From: a virus
IMG/VR virus record: IMGVR_UViG_3300022752_000213
Location: 1-34,541 of that record
DNA length: 34,541 nucleotides
Direction: 5' to 3' (one strand)
How positions within the stretch are numbered: the stretch's first letter is position 1; the number at the start of each line of letters is the position of its first letter. Position numbers and translations under genes: made by a program. Under the pieces are notes generated by a model. It searched no databases. It had not been told where the DNA came from and saw nothing but the letters and a program-made list of their open reading frames with translations. Shown here piece by piece: positions 2,333 through 34,253 of the stretch.

Positions 2333-2625
2333 TTTTCTTCCTCTTTATTATCTTTTGTTAATTTTCTTCCAAAATATAATCCCGCACAAGCGTAGAAAAA
2401 TTGTAAAGCATTTTCTATATCTACTCCATCAACAAGCTTTGCAACTTTATTTAAAAGCCCAAAAATTACCAGTCCAGAAGAAACAACCAAAAGTGTAAAA
2501 GATGCAGAAGGTTTTTGACTAATTGGGTCACGTATAACTGGTACAGGAATTCCTTTATTAGTACACCAATCTACTAGTTTTTTTTGCAAGTCTTTTATTT
2601 TTTTCAACGCTTTCCTTTTTTCCAT
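2329..2625 (-). CDS. Small membrane protein, holin-like candidate
   Basis: The protein has 98 residues: a basic, helical N-terminus (about 1-25), a hydrophobic segment at about 43-60 (TLLVVSSGLVIFGLL) and a second one at about 74-87 ending in GLYFGRK, then a charged tail. Two short transmembrane helices and a charged C-terminus suit a class II holin, but similar proteins of unknown role also occur in phage tail clusters, and no endolysin is nearby. It overlaps the 163-aa gene upstream by 22 bp and the 118-aa gene downstream by 4 bp. The membrane location is well supported; the holin label is tentative. Confidence 0.75.
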   Translation of the reverse strand: MEKRKALKKIKDLQKKLVDWCTNKGIPVPVIRDPISQKPSASFTLLVVSSGLVIFGLLNKVAKLVDGVDIENALQFFYACAGLYFGRKLTKDNKEEEK

Positions 2626-20839: not shown

Positions 20840-21148
20840 ATGAAAGAAGCTCTTAAGGAATTACGTAAAATTGCAAAGATGCCAGACCAGAAACACTGGA
20901 ACTGTACAGAAATGCGTGAAAGAGCCTTAGAAGATTGGATATATAAATGGATTATTGAGCTAGAATATGAACAACATGTGTTAAATAAGAAGTATTTAAG
21001 CTCTGATTTCGAGGATTTCTTAAAAGAACATATTGGAAAGAAGCTGGCAGAACAAGCAATGGAAGAAGCTATTGAAATTAAAAGCGAAAAAACAGAATTA
21101 AAAGGTAATTTAACATGTCTACGAAGAAAACCAAAAGAATTGCCTTAG
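20840..21148 (+). CDS. Helical small protein, 102 aa, unknown
   Basis: A mostly alpha-helical, charged protein of 102 residues with a Trp-rich N-terminal half (HWNCTEMRERALEDWIYKWIIELEYEQ). It has no membrane segment or known motif. The last 34 bp overlap the next gene. The ribosome binding site is weak (GGAAT), suggesting coupling to the gene before it. Confidence 0.65.
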   Translation: MKEALKELRKIAKMPDQKHWNCTEMRERALEDWIYKWIIELEYEQHVLNKKYLSSDFEDFLKEHIGKKLAEQAMEEAIEIKSEKTELKGNLTCLRRKPKELP

Positions 21149-21324
21149 TTGATCTAATTAAAGATCAGGTTGTTTGGTCAGATAGGTGGAATACTTACTT
21201 GAAATACGTAGGAAAAGACTTTGATGGCGAACATATATTTAAATTCTTGGATAAAAGTAGCTATTGTGTTATAATTGAAACTTGTTTATATGAACCGCCA
21301 GAGCTAATAAAGGAGCTTTTGTGA
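21115..21324 (+). CDS. Small protein with C-terminal LIKELL tail, 69 aa
   Basis: A 69-residue protein: basic N-terminus, then a beta-rich core (QVVWSDRWNTYLKYVGKDFDGEHIFKFL, aromatic-rich), ending in PELIKELL. It resembles the beta-rich small proteins at 22254, 22472, 29298 and 29971, which end in LEIELL or LELELL. The DNA for the tail (AAAGGAGCTTTTG) also carries the ribosome binding site of the next gene, whose GTG start overlaps the stop codon. Confidence 0.68.
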   Translation: MSTKKTKRIALVDLIKDQVVWSDRWNTYLKYVGKDFDGEHIFKFLDKSSYCVIIETCLYEPPELIKELL

Positions 21325-21674
21325 CAGTTAAGAGAAAACCTGCCAGAAAAAAACCACAACTATCTGGAACTATTCAAAGTGGCGTGCTATTTATAGGTGA
21401 TTGTCAGTTTTTCGCACAGTCTCCAGTGTTAGAGTTAAATCCTACTACGGGCGAAACGGTGGATGTTACTCCTAAAGACCCTCTTAATCCTTTCAATACC
21501 TTAGATAGAACCTTTGATTTGGTTGGAGACTCTGAAAAAAACCTAGAAATAGCCCCATTTATCCCAGGTAGAGGAGTTCTTCTTAATACGCATCTCCAAC
21601 AAGGTAATTTTGTTGTGCGTAAAAAGATAAAAAATGGTAAGTTAGTTGGCTATGTTATTGATATAAAGGGGTAA
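21321..21674 (+). CDS. Unknown protein, 117 aa, GTG start
   Basis: Translation probably starts at GTG (21321), which overlaps the previous stop codon (GTGA) and has AAAGGAG 6 bp upstream. The N-terminus is basic (KRKPARKKP), followed by a beta-rich domain with GVLFIGDCQFFAQSPVLEL and PFIPGRGVLLNTHLQQG. No family is recognised. The codon use is slightly richer in C than in its neighbours. Confidence 0.65.
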   Translation: MTVKRKPARKKPQLSGTIQSGVLFIGDCQFFAQSPVLELNPTTGETVDVTPKDPLNPFNTLDRTFDLVGDSEKNLEIAPFIPGRGVLLNTHLQQGNFVVRKKIKNGKLVGYVIDIKG

Positions 21675-21675
21675 T

Positions 21676-21864
21676 ATGACACAGACTAAAGAAGAATTTC
21701 TAATAGACTATCTCATAAAGAACAACTTTTCTGCAACTTCCAGTAAAGATCTTGAAAAAGCCATATCTGGAATGACAGCTCAACAAATCATTAAAGCCAT
21801 GGAAATTGCGAGGAATATCCAGACTAATCTAAACGCAACATCTCTAGGAAAAGAGTTAACTTGA
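21676..21864 (+). CDS. Small helical protein with LGKELT tail, 62 aa
   Basis: A helical 62-residue protein (EEFLIDYLIKNNF, then LEKAISGMTAQQIIKAMEIARNIQ) ending in TSLGKELT. The next two genes encode other helical proteins ending in LGRELF and LGKELF. It overlaps the following TTG start by 4 bp. Start: ATG one base after the previous stop. The function is unknown. Confidence 0.68.
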   Translation: MTQTKEEFLIDYLIKNNFSATSSKDLEKAISGMTAQQIIKAMEIARNIQTNLNATSLGKELT

Positions 21865-22100
21865 TATACGATGTTATGGCTATTTCTTCAGAGGAAGCAA
21901 GCGTTTTGCTATATAAACGATGTGTGGAGTTAATAGTTACAGAAAAGAAATATGAAATAACTGCAGATTCAATGGTTAGGGTGCTAACCCAGCGATTATA
22001 TGGAGATTATAGGCAAGTGGTAAATACTGCAGAATACAAAAGGGCTGAGAAACATGTCAACTACTTTAAAAACACAGGACTTGGACGAGAGTTATTTTAG
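21861..22100 (+). CDS. Small helical protein with LGRELF tail, TTG start
   Basis: The frame opens with TTG at 21861, overlapping the previous stop codon (TTGA), with GGAAAAGAG just upstream; an in-frame ATG at 21876 is an alternative. The 79-residue product is helical (SSEEASVLLYKRCVELIV, DSMVRVLTQRLYGDYRQVV) and ends in TGLGRELF. It is similar in layout, though not closely in sequence, to its two neighbours. Confidence 0.65.
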   Translation: MIYDVMAISSEEASVLLYKRCVELIVTEKKYEITADSMVRVLTQRLYGDYRQVVNTAEYKRAEKHVNYFKNTGLGRELF

Positions 22101-22257
22101 ATTTAGATCACAAGTATCTAAGGAATCTACAGAAGATTTACAACTAATATTAGACGCTTACATTTTAATAGGTAGACATTTCTTTGACATCTCTATAAAG
22201 GCAATAAAAGACGAGCTGGAGTTTAGAAGCACAAGCTTAGGAAAGGAATTGTTTTGA
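22054..22257 (+). CDS. Small helical protein with LGKELF tail, 67 aa
   Basis: A 67-residue helical protein (STEDLQLILDAYILIGRHFF, IKAIKDELEF) ending in STSLGKELF. It starts 47 bp inside the end of the previous gene, an unusually long overlap; no better start is apparent downstream. The tail codons contain GGAAAGGAA, the ribosome binding site of the next gene. Confidence 0.65.
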   Translation: MSTTLKTQDLDESYFRFRSQVSKESTEDLQLILDAYILIGRHFFDISIKAIKDELEFRSTSLGKELF

Positions 22258-22475
22258 GGCTAGAGCTATCTAAGATATATAAAGTGTCAGATAAGTTTAA
22301 TGACAGGCGATTCTATGTTAAAGTCACAGAAGAGTTGTGTAATTGGGAATATGATTATAACACATATAAATGTAGAATATTGAGCGTTGGGGATTTTTAT
22401 GGACAAACCCTAATTCTTGTGACGGAAATGTGGAACGTAATAGAGGCTACAGACCTCGAAATAGAGCTTTTATGA
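22254..22475 (+). CDS. Small beta-rich protein with LEIELL tail, TTG start
   Basis: The start is TTG at 22254, overlapping the previous TGA (TTGA) and preceded by AAAGGAA. The 73-residue product begins RLELSKIYKVSDKF and is beta-rich and aromatic, ending in ATDLEIELL. The pattern K-IYKV or GDV-V, an aromatic middle, then a helical LE-ELL end recurs in the proteins at 22472, 29298 and 29971, suggesting a family of SH3-like small domains. This fold is an inference from the strand pattern. Confidence 0.68.
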   Translation: MRLELSKIYKVSDKFNDRRFYVKVTEELCNWEYDYNTYKCRILSVGDFYGQTLILVTEMWNVIEATDLEIELL

Positions 22476-22693
22476 AGATAGGTAGGGTATATAAGGTTCA
22501 GTATAATGTGTACGATATAACCGATATAAACGCTTATCTGGTAGTAATAAAATCTGAAAGCAAGGCAGACCATCCAAACTTAGGTCACTACTATGAGGCG
22601 GAAATGTTAGAAACAGGATGTAAGTTACATTTCTATCCTAGAGATTGGAGTATTGTGCATGAACTTAGTAGCTTGGAGTTAGAGTTGCTGTGA
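22472..22693 (+). CDS. Small beta-rich protein with LELELL tail, 73 aa
   Basis: The start at 22472 (ATGA overlap with the previous stop) gives MKIGRVYKVQYNVYD, which lines up with the starts of its relatives; an upstream ATG at 22430 would add 14 residues unlike them. The protein ends in SSLELELL. This tail is kept although no gene follows that could need a ribosome binding site there. It is the last gene of the operon. Confidence 0.7.
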   Translation: MKIGRVYKVQYNVYDITDINAYLVVIKSESKADHPNLGHYYEAEMLETGCKLHFYPRDWSIVHELSSLELELL

Positions 22694-28840: not shown

Positions 28841-29307
28841 TGAACATTTTTGCTACTTCCAATTGTCCTATTGAATCCGCTCAATTCTTAGACGATAAAC
28901 GAGTCAGAAAAATGGTGTTAGAAAGCGGGCAATTATTGTCCACGGCAATGAGGGTACATGGCTATTCTGGCGATGAGGTTTATAAAATTGCTTATAAAAA
29001 TCATCCGAGTAATATTTGGACTCGTGCCACCCAAGGTAATTACAAATGGCTTTTAGAGCATTTTAGAGCATTATGCGATGAATATGTCCGACGCTTTGGA
29101 AAAACCCACGCTAGTTTTGCTTTACTTCCAGCTTTTGAGCGAGGTATTAGTCTCATTCCAGAGGGTGAACAAATGCCTTTTTCAAACAATGCTAGAAACT
29201 TGACAAAGGGTGTTGACTTCACGCATGAAACTAATACAATAATAGCATATCAGCTTTACCTATCAGTGAGATGGGAAAGTGATAAAAGGGAGCCAAAATG
29301 GAGTTAA
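28840..29307 (+). CDS. Pyrimidine-dimer glycosylase family-like protein (Pyr_excise)
   Basis: The 155-residue protein shows the pattern of phage proteins assigned to the Pyr_excise family: MNIFATSNCPIESAQFLDD with KRVRKMVLESGQLLSTAMR at about 20-38, then YKNHPSNIWTRATQGNYKWLLEHFRALCDEYVRRFGK at about 52-88 and a C-terminal KREPKW. Relatives include the T4 endonuclease V family, which removes UV-induced pyrimidine dimers, though activity is shown only for some members. The start overlaps the previous stop (TAATG), and it overlaps the next gene by 10 bp. Confidence 0.78.
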   Translation: MNIFATSNCPIESAQFLDDKRVRKMVLESGQLLSTAMRVHGYSGDEVYKIAYKNHPSNIWTRATQGNYKWLLEHFRALCDEYVRRFGKTHASFALLPAFERGISLIPEGEQMPFSNNARNLTKGVDFTHETNTIIAYQLYLSVRWESDKREPKWS

Positions 29308-29507
29308 AATTAGGAGATGTTTTAGTTTTTAAAGACAAAATTGCCAACTTAATAGGTCCAATTACTGTTTGGGGAGTGGATTGTAATCGTAGGGTGAGAT
29401 ATAGTTATGGACTTATGGATGAAAAAAGAGGTTATTTTTTTGCAAATGAAAAAGATTTGTTAAGAGAAACAAAAAAACTCTCTAAACTTGAAATAGAACT
29501 ATTATAA
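29298..29507 (+). CDS. Small beta-rich protein with LEIELL tail, 69 aa
   Basis: It begins MELKLGDVLVFKDKIANLIG and is aromatic and beta-rich, ending in LSKLEIELL. The stop is followed by a separate ribosome binding site (AAAGGAGAAAA) for the next gene, so here the tail is not needed for translation initiation downstream. This points to a protein-level role for the tail. It is related in pattern to the proteins at 22254, 22472 and 29971. Confidence 0.7.
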   Translation: MELKLGDVLVFKDKIANLIGPITVWGVDCNRRVRYSYGLMDEKRGYFFANEKDLLRETKKLSKLEIELL

Positions 29508-29519
29508 AGGAGAAAACAA

Positions 29520-29741
29520 ATGGAAACAATTAAGAAATTTAAAAACCGCAAGCTTTATAGCAAAACAACAAAAAGCTATGTTACACTTAATTATCTAGTT
29601 GACAAGCTTAGAAACAAAGAATTATTCCATGTTGTAGAGCATGGAACTAACTTGGACATAACAAGTAAAACCCTTAAGCAAGCATTGATTACAGTTGACT
29701 TAACGGATGATGTTGTAAAGAGAGTTATCTTGGGAGAATAG
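29520..29741 (+). CDS. Small Lys-rich protein, 73 aa
   Basis: A 73-residue protein with a basic N-terminus (IKKFKNRKLYSKTTKSYV) resembling small phage proteins that begin with R-LY---T--YVTL. There follow LNYLVDKLRNKELFHVVEH and a DLTDDVVKRVILGE end. The first half recalls the PHB/PHA-type N-terminal DNA-binding pattern (RKLYNT--S-YV-L), but this is not certain. The AAAGGAG ribosome binding site is good. Confidence 0.68.
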   Translation: METIKKFKNRKLYSKTTKSYVTLNYLVDKLRNKELFHVVEHGTNLDITSKTLKQALITVDLTDDVVKRVILGE

Positions 29742-29744
29742 TTT

Positions 29745-30029
29745 TTGAATTGTCGCATTAAGTATAATAAACTTAAGTCCGGTGAATTGGAAAGTGGGGA
29801 ACTAATCTCCATCAAAGGAATTGTTTATTTTGCCAGGATTGACTTTACACAAGGTTGTTGGAGAATATTCAATGCTAGGCGTAGGAATGTTATAAAAGAA
29901 GGCTACAGCCAAAATAAGAACGTTTTACGACGCATGGTTAGGAGAGAACTTCAAAAGTTAGGAGTTAAGCTTGAAAAAGAATTTAAAGAAAGTGGATATT
30001 CAAAAACCAAAAATAGGAAGTTATTATAA
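29745..30029 (+). CDS. Small basic protein, 94 aa, TTG start
   Basis: The frame opens at TTG (29745) 3 bp after the previous stop, with GGGAGAATAG upstream. The product is Arg/Lys-rich (CRIKYNKLKSGELESGELIS, CWRIFNARRRNVIKEGYSQN) and ends in KTKNRKLL. An inner LGVKLEKEF resembles the tails of its neighbours but is not at the end. It overlaps the next gene by 59 bp, which is long. Confidence 0.58.
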   Translation: MNCRIKYNKLKSGELESGELISIKGIVYFARIDFTQGCWRIFNARRRNVIKEGYSQNKNVLRRMVRRELQKLGVKLEKEFKESGYSKTKNRKLL

Positions 30030-30210
30030 AATCTTTATAAATGGACCTTTAAGTAAAGATAATGTAATGGAAATAAAAAAAATTAATGGAATTATAGCAA
30101 TTTATTCTATTTTAAGTGAACCACAATATGAAAATTGTTGGGACTATGTAAGGTTTACAATAGATGAAAATCACCCAAAGCTTTCTTCCTTAGAGATAGA
30201 ACTTTTATGA
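29971..30210 (+). CDS. Small beta-rich protein with LEIELL tail, TTG start
   Basis: The frame opens at TTG (29971) with AGGAG 7 bp upstream; a GTG at 29992 is an alternative. After a basic start comes PKIGSYYKIFINGPLSKDN, aligned in pattern with its relatives, and the product ends in SSLEIELL. Its stop overlaps the next start (ATGA). Confidence 0.65.
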   Translation: MKKNLKKVDIQKPKIGSYYKIFINGPLSKDNVMEIKKINGIIAIYSILSEPQYENCWDYVRFTIDENHPKLSSLEIELL

Positions 30211-33390: not shown

Positions 33391-33524
33391 TGATTTCTGA
33401 AATTAAACTTTTGATTGACAGACTATTCTTTTTGTTTATAATTGTATTAGCACTTAGTTTTGTTTTGTGCAAAGGATTTATTATAGACACAAAGGATATA
33501 ATAAAAAAGAAGGTACTGAAATGA
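33390..33524 (+). CDS. 44-residue membrane peptide
   Basis: A 44-codon frame from the ATG at 33390, whose first base is the last base of the VWA stop codon (TAATG). The centre is a long hydrophobic helix (LFFLFIIVLALSFVLC). The C-terminus is basic (IIKKKVLK). It overlaps the next gene by 4 bp (ATGA). GGAG at 9 bp is the ribosome binding site. Confidence 0.62.
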   Translation: MISEIKLLIDRLFFLFIIVLALSFVLCKGFIIDTKDIIKKKVLK

Positions 33525-33763
33525 AATCAACTATAGAATTTAATCTACCCGAAGAGTCAGAAGAATTACAGGACGCTTTAAAGGGTAGCTTATACAAGTG
33601 TAGAATAGACACGCTTTATGATGAAGTGTTTCGTCCACATTTTAAATATAATAAGCCTCTTATGCCTAAAGATGAAGGCGGTATGCAAGAACTTACTGAT
33701 GGGCAAATAGCCATACTTGAACGAGTTTGGGAAAATGTTAGAAGACATTTTGAAATGGATTAA
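33521..33763 (+). CDS. Small acidic protein, 80 aa
   Basis: The start at 33521 overlaps the previous stop (ATGA) and gives MKSTIEFNLPEESEELQDAL; an upstream ATG at 33467 would add 18 residues overlapping the membrane peptide. The MKSTIEFNLPEE--E---A--G start and the following D-LYDEVFRPH pattern match a small phage protein often seen in many genomes, with unknown role. It precedes the structured RNA. Confidence 0.72.
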   Translation: MKSTIEFNLPEESEELQDALKGSLYKCRIDTLYDEVFRPHFKYNKPLMPKDEGGMQELTDGQIAILERVWENVRRHFEMD

Positions 33764-33770
33764 TATTGCT

Positions 33771-34010
33771 AAGCAGTCCAATCCTAGCTTATGTTAGTGA
33801 AGATTGTTGGGACGGAGCGACCGACAGCTTGAGCGACTGATCAGCGCAAGTCGGTGACAGGGAGGAGAGACTCCTTACTTGGTAGTAGCTATATGCTATT
33901 GCTGTTCAAGGTGTCACATACCTTTAACCTAACCCATATGATGGGAGCAGGAATGGGAACCTGCCTAATAATAGTGGTACAAAAGTTGTGAGTGTGGCGG
34001 GCTGTGCTTT
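33771..34010 (+). ncRNA. Candidate structured non-coding RNA with nine helices
   Basis: A closing stem joins AAGCA-GTCC (33771-33779) with GGGC-TG-TGCTT (33999-34009), followed by a U-tract. Inside, in order: AATC-CTAGC/GTTAG-GATT (33780-33805); CCGAC-CTTG/CAAG-TCGG (33821-33854); AGGAG/CTCCT (33863-33875); GTAGTAGC/GCTATTGC (33882-33902, several G·U); AAGGT/ACCTT (33908-33924); CCCAT/ATGGG (33933-33945); GCAGG/CCTGC (33947-33964); TACAA/TTGTG (33978-33990). GTGACA (33854-33859) can pair with TGTCAC (33912-33917), which overlaps a hairpin loop, giving a pseudoknot. Several G·U pairs would be A·C on the other strand, so plus is favoured. It matches no RNA family that I recognise. Confidence 0.7.
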
Positions 34011-34025
34011 TTATTTAGGAGATTT

Positions 34026-34253
34026 ATGAGTAAATACAAAATAGCAGAAATAGCTATCGAGCTTAAACAAGATGGCACTCCTATGTATTGGGTTTACAAT
34101 GCTGGCTATCATCCCGGTCAAGGTGGTATGGAGTTTACTTATGGTAACTTCGGCACTCCTAGCTTAGAGAAGTCGTTAGATTTACTGAAAGAAAAACTGG
34201 TGAGGGATATCGATTATGTACTGGAAGAGATCAAACGAAGGGAATCGGAATGA
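34026..34253 (+). CDS. Small protein, 75 aa, unknown
   Basis: A 75-residue protein starting with KYKIAEIAIELKQDG, then a Gly/aromatic stretch (MYWVYNAGYHPGQGGMEF) and a helical C-terminus (LEKSLDLLKEKLVRDIDYVL). No family is recognised. AGGAG precedes the ATG directly after the structured RNA. Its G+C content is higher than most plus-strand genes. The stop overlaps the next start (ATGA). Confidence 0.7.
   Translation: MSKYKIAEIAIELKQDGTPMYWVYNAGYHPGQGGMEFTYGNFGTPSLEKSLDLLKEKLVRDIDYVLEEIKRRESE

Follow-up and report, generated by a model that had tools for sequence, protein, structure and literature searches.

The put RNA of phage HK022 is an antiterminator of ~70 nt whose two stem-loops follow the early promoters and suppress termination (PMC9378689). 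Theta ribozymes, the HDV-like ribozymes of phages, are small and intergenic, are often tRNA-adjacent and cleave at the 3′ end of the tRNA (PMC10879173). GOLLD, ROOL and OLE are ornate structured non-coding RNAs of phages and bacteria, found mostly in environmental and phage DNA (PMC12286853). The 34.5-kb IMG/VR phage record analysed here (34,541 nt, hereafter the window) carries a segment at 33771–34010 that comparative evidence identifies as a conserved structured non-coding RNA of uncultured phages, modular in build, with a 5′ module (D1) plus a hairpin and a 3′ core. The family is new, being absent from Rfam 15.

The RNA segment lies in a gap between two genes; the first-pass annotation described it as lacking a reading frame, which agrees with the ORF-free stretch between the end of one ORF at 33763 and the start of the next at 34026. 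G+C content peaks at 45.6% in the segment, compared with 26–43% in 250-nt windows further upstream. The parts of the RNA, the promoter-like site and the two flanking genes are all on the plus strand. The upstream gene (33521–33763) encodes 80 aa (MKSTIEFNLPEE...) with no Pfam or PHROG family, and it also precedes the core in L010/G006 (71% identity). The downstream gene (34026–34253) encodes 75 aa (MSKYKIAE...), to which no family was assigned; next comes a DUF3307 gene, and the homologue of that gene in phage record G022 lies directly 3′ of a long form of the RNA. A perfect sigma70-like promoter, TTGACA-16-TATAAT, occupies 33415–33442 (12/12, a consensus match only), and promoter, small gene and RNA together form a moron-like unit. 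Elsewhere in the window (21115–22693 and 29298–30210) there are many small ORFs with similar C-termini (TSLGKELF, SLEIELL, SLELELL), probably reflecting a coding end that doubles as the Shine–Dalgarno (SD) sequence of the overlapping next gene.

Folding energy is by itself no better than chance and proves nothing: the minimum free energy z-score against shuffled sequence was −1.53 for the plus strand and −1.45 for the minus strand. The nine consecutive helices of the first-pass annotation could not be accepted on energy, because z is only about −1.5. No Rfam 15 family reached its gathering score in the window, and permissive scans gave weak unrelated matches only; Rfam 15 scans of the relatives' loci returned tRNAs only, outside D1 and the core. 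The HDV-like covariance models of Rfam matched neither the window nor the scanned relatives, the segment itself was unmatched by ARAGORN (tRNA, tmRNA) or RF00005, and BLASTN with the segment gave no hit among 50,697 isolate phages or 72,556 plasmids. Searches of the literature on the motif strings and on novel phage motifs brought up no relevant work. The frame RCHIP...SCEVAAR was considered as a conserved peptide and discarded, as the distance between the two conserved strands is not consistently divisible by three from copy to copy; a read-through pseudoknot and an attC-like cassette site were both considered and are unsupported.

Relatives of the DUF2201 protein encoded by a neighbouring gene led to six phage records. 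At the contig end of one of these, G006, AGGTGTCACATACCT...AAAGTTGTGAGG matches window positions 33909–33923 and 33982–33992, with a different insert between them, and pattern scans of IMG/VR used these two shared words. The scans found more than 30 copies of the core (a minimum count), at one to three per phage record, in unrelated intergenic sites of uncultured phage contigs. A covariance model built from 13 core copies with the window left out (R1) recovers window positions 33905–34011 at 36.1 bits (E 6.8e-5), and a second model that includes the window (R2) scores it at 42.9 bits. In 577 kb of unrelated phage DNA the R2 scores stayed at or below 12.3 bits. This R2 run is a fair control; that of R3, the D1 model, is biased since the same loci were picked by a D1 pattern. 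The suggestion that this may be a new phage RNA thus gains from the lack of an Rfam 15 match and from recurrence in dozens of unrelated phage intergenic sites with compensatory changes, which affect P1, P3 and D1.

Several candidates were discarded: L069/L078, L079, L083 and L084 are pattern matches without P3, and GGTGTCACATA in a G+C-rich intergenic region of G001–G003 was treated as a chance occurrence, with no UGUGA strand and no R2 match where scanned. Locus L012 (1200–2200, in G001 and also G002 and G003) comprises ~1 kb of intergenic sequence, poor in ORFs, that contains GTGACA and GGTGTCACATA and has no core match, possibly another structured RNA. The nearest isolate terminase (29% identity) belongs to a phage of Silvanigrella aquatica, in which R2 found no core. 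A single bacterial copy was seen on one contig of Ca. Harrisonbacteria (L085); as it occurs in only one of 286 genomes of that class, the other 285 having none, it is probably carried by a mobile element and is not a host RNA.

One part of the core is the P1 hairpin, AAGGU-GUCACAU-ACCUU (33908–33924; stem 33908–33912/33920–33924), which lies in the R1 match. Its pairs vary together as AU, GC, CG and UA across 30 aligned sequences, and in most copies it has 3–6 bp and the loop GUCACAU. Within that loop, UCACA (33914–33918) pairs with UGUGA (33987–33991, within AAAAGUUGUGAG), forming what comparative evidence indicates to be an H-type pseudoknot. This pairing is kept in 30 of 30 aligned cores with invariant bases; the sole compensatory change, UCACC/GGUGA, was found in the second tandem unit of L236 by a structure-led scan in which the loop letters were not preset beyond the first G. 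The window has both defining parts of the core, P1 with its GUCACAU loop and the UGUGA strand. Between P1 and the second pseudoknot strand lies P2 (33925–33980), a variable insert that ranges from a few nt to ~70 nt and differs widely in sequence among copies. The two candidate P2 hairpins of the window, CCCAU/AUGGG and GCAGG/CCUGC, are specific to it, and a P2 hairpin is dispensable, since the insert of L377 is only a few nt long. A UCURAUC-like hairpin loop was observed in P2 of L053, L063, L066, L074 and L261 and also in D1 of L049, L350 and the window.

Downstream of the pseudoknot most copies carry P3, a hairpin with a GCU loop in which all four counted stem pairs show both-side changes; slid controls for the whole core structure gave 0–1 such pairs. 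Of the 26 copies in which P3 is clear, 19 have at least four T in the next 8 nt. The window's own P3 is degenerate (GCGG-GCU-GUGC, 33997–34007, with a G·G mismatch), and P3 is weak in L049 and L350 too; the first unit of L049 is a core without P3. The U-tract that had been noted after the closing stem is real: a T-run or T-rich tail at 34008–34016 comes after P3, and the next gene's SD adjoins it. The window's P3 was not called as a terminator-like site. The long-range closing stem itself, in which 33771–33779 would pair with 33999–34009, is possible; of it only AAGCA/UGCUU can also form in L049 and, in shorter form, in L350, where it is invariant, and the stem shows no covariation and competes with P3.

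The 5′ module D1 (33817–33879) consists of a stem ACCGAC/GUCGGU (33820–33825/33850–33855) around a small hairpin (33833–33835/33845–33847), followed by AGGGAG-GAGAGA-CUCCUU (33859–33876; stem 33859–33864/33871–33876), whose loop is conserved as GAGAGA or GAAAGA. Compensatory changes occur in five of the six stem pairs of the GAGAGA-loop hairpin, and covariation also supports the inner hairpin near 33833–33847. In an alignment of five sequences with 15 pairs, 97.3% of cells are paired and 8 of 15 pairs have both-side changes; this covariation score was reached by none of 500 shuffles, slid controls gave 1–2, and RNAalifold independently proposed the same fold. The D1 hairpins covary in 5–6 phages. 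The general form is an outer stem ACCRA/UYGGU, an inner hairpin and a GARAGA-loop hairpin, all present in the window. R3, which was built with the window included, scores it at 87.6 bits; in sequences outside its build it gave 60.6 bits for L190/G325 and 34.6 bits for G022.

Immediately 3′ of D1 is the hairpin GGUAGUAGC-UAUAU-GCUAUUGCU (33881–33903; stem 33881–33889/33895–33903), with an identical loop in L342 and L190. The L190 counterpart, CCUGUAGC-UAUAU-GCUACUGG, covaries with it: by eye, one pair is swapped on both sides, three one-side changes still pair and one becomes U·U. The L190 record gave no core match, so D1 occurs there without the core. Long forms with the 5′ module are the window, L049, L046, L342/L349, L350 and G022, of which L046, L049, L350 and G022 have TATAAT near the 5′ end. 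Another module, M (GCGGGGCGGGAG...; GCGGGGCGGGAGTTTGTTAGTTTG...CCGCAGCGAAYAACCTTAAACT), recurs in long forms L046, L049, L342, L350, L359 and L031; to judge from its sequence it looks like a second pseudoknot, GCGG/CCGC, which becomes CUGG/CCAG in L049.

These comparisons revise the first-pass fold in part. P1, AGGGAG/CUCCUU and GGUAGUAGC/GCUAUUGCU stand by covariation, whereas the hairpin GUUGG/CCGAC is unsupported, CCGAC being one strand of the D1 stem; module boundaries were also corrected. A pseudoknot in which the loop of the AAGGU hairpin pairs with a distant strand had been proposed correctly, but with GUGACA (33854–33859) as the partner where UGUGA (33987–33991) is found. GUGACA was rejected as the main partner because its GU belongs to the D1 stem and its last A to the next, GAGAGA-loop hairpin, and because it is lost in G022 (UCGGUCGUGG) and missing from the short forms; UGUGA, by contrast, is present in every case. 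A transient exchange between GUGACA and UGUGA pairing is possible.

The core is on the same strand as its flanking genes throughout, and these genes are mutually unrelated; by sequence inspection they appear to encode small homeodomain-like, DNA-binding-looking proteins, major-tail-like proteins, DNA polymerase, dUTPase and PRPP synthetase. The L081 and L301 copies follow a major-tail-like gene, and others lie near DNA-polymerase and nucleotide-metabolism genes. Mostly the core lies 5–30 nt past a stop codon, and in G006 the stop overlaps P1; at least 18 of 32 copies have an upstream ORF of 50 or more codons whose end is no more than 30 nt from P1, a figure that is too low where one stop directly follows another. 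CUCCUCC pyrimidine tracts stand just before P1 in L071, L072, L075, L082, L081 and L301, and in the last two the pre-P1 segment is, by eye, complementary to the next gene's SD region.

Some copies neighbour tRNA genes. In L350, D1 is followed at 1 nt by a tRNA-Val. In L149, which is G+C-rich, a D1-like GUGAC + GAGAGA hairpin ends 5 nt before a tRNA-Met; this adjacency is suggestive only, because L149 was picked by a D1 pattern. L149 (2447–2739) holds two such D1-like GUGAC + GAGAGA-loop hairpins in a phage tRNA cluster, along with further odd tRNA-like sequences. In L050 the core itself stands a few nt ahead of a tRNA, and in L060 it does so ahead of a tRNA-like sequence. These genes 3′ of the core (L050 7032–7136; L060 ~2450–2620, minus strand) have extra sequence in or near the anticodon arm, and the L050 gene is hit by the Rfam tRNA model across 105 nt and missed by ARAGORN; introns or decoy tRNAs are possible explanations.

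The association with stop codons and the hairpin with its T-rich tail make an effect on the preceding message at its 3′ end, and on read-through in the operon, the simplest reading, and the RNA may be, as a tentative first choice, a cis-acting 3′-end or intercistronic element that limits read-through and protects the upstream RNA. The pseudoknot would fold on leaving the polymerase, just behind the stop codon. P3 and the U-tract would then act as a leaky terminator or pause, such that only part of transcription reaches the next gene, and the folded end would keep 3′ exonucleases off the upstream RNA. Those long forms that bear a promoter-like −10 box of their own would give stable small RNAs that finish with this 3′ module. 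Counted in favour of this 3′-end role are the intergenic position on the gene strand between unrelated neighbours, often with a stop at most 30 nt upstream, the P3 covariation, the T-rich tails, TATAAT in long forms, and sites by tail, DNA-polymerase and nucleotide-metabolism genes, where expression steps would be useful; counted against it are the lack of a T-rich tail in about a quarter of the clear-P3 copies, the weak P3 of the window, the core without P3 (first unit of L049) and D1 without the core (L190). The GUCACAU loop and AAGUUGUGAG are near-invariant, beyond what a terminator needs, which suggests specific recognition and keeps protein recognition, a ligand or catalysis as live rivals.

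It is conceivable, if rather unlikely, that the core and/or D1 represent a class of catalytic or ligand-sensing RNA not described before, in the form of a minimal reusable pseudoknot placed on message ends and tRNA leaders and combined into larger RNAs in which tRNAs fill an interchangeable slot. A ligand- or protein-sensing role, with the pseudoknot as aptamer or operator and P3 or a nearby SD as expression platform, would suit the invariant loop and strand, the P3 or SD a few nt 3′ of the pseudoknot, and the SD complementarity of L081 and L301; it is judged unlikely, given that this complementarity was seen in two related loci only, no common alternative fold was found, and the downstream genes are unrelated, with a tRNA in L050. 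The promoter-like −10 boxes, D1, module M and 3′ T-tails of the long forms, and the retention of D1 between distant phages, would fit a trans-acting regulatory or scaffold RNA in which the core is a 3′ stability module; core-only short forms are commoner in the set, though the search patterns favoured the core, and this too appears an unlikely role.

That the core and/or D1 is a putative small self-cleaving ribozyme, cutting polycistronic or tRNA-containing transcripts at the module, seems improbable. The compact pseudoknot, the invariant unpaired and loop bases and the many phage contexts accord with it, and the position of the core 5′ of the tRNA (L050) or tRNA-like sequence (L060) and of D1 1–5 nt 5′ of tRNAs (L350, L149) recalls the often tRNA-adjacent theta ribozymes (PMC10879173), but no Rfam ribozyme family matches, no conserved sequence surrounds any candidate cleavage site, and P3 and the T-tail would be unexplained. 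Short conserved words in many intergenic contexts might also mark a DNA-level site for recombination, replication or protein binding, which is made very improbable by the compensatory changes, the single orientation relative to genes, the pseudoknot topology and the position after stop codons. The z-score of only −1.5 would agree with a spacer folding by chance, with no element; this reading can practically be dismissed, being refuted by the recovery of the window by R1 and by the covariation of P1 and D1, and the other homology and covariation results and the ceiling of 12.3 bits for R2 in unrelated phage DNA also speak against it.

The result is a covariation-backed RNA family that neither Rfam nor, at the sensitivity of blastn, the records of isolate phages contain, and it accounts in annotation for recurrent ORF-free gaps. 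It also provides a concrete marker for the division of operon expression or the processing of tRNAs in these phages, and because it is modular (core alone, D1 alone, D1 by a tRNA, tandem cores) its function can be tested on short constructs.

Compared with the known systems, the new RNA shares with GOLLD, ROOL and OLE its character as a structured non-coding RNA found mostly via environmental and phage DNA; those RNAs are much larger and have Rfam families, none of which it matches. Like theta ribozymes it is a small, intergenic phage RNA with some tRNA-adjacent copies, but its modules lie 5′ of the tRNAs and have no HDV-family match in Rfam. Riboswitches of the preQ1-I and SAM-II type place a small H-type pseudoknot near an expression platform, and the core is likewise an apparent H-type pseudoknot close to a possible platform; it differs in having no Rfam match, other conserved bases and no shared downstream pathway. 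With HK022 put it has in common that it is a phage cis RNA, with a core of similar size, that may act on the transcription complex, although by inspection position and topology set the two apart, the core being a pseudoknot past stop codons, usually with a terminator-like hairpin at its end. The hairpin and T-tail after a gene also resemble intrinsic terminators and phage moron modules, as does the order of sigma70-like promoter, small gene and RNA in the window, but an ordinary terminator has neither the upstream invariant pseudoknot nor the conserved loop that this RNA carries.
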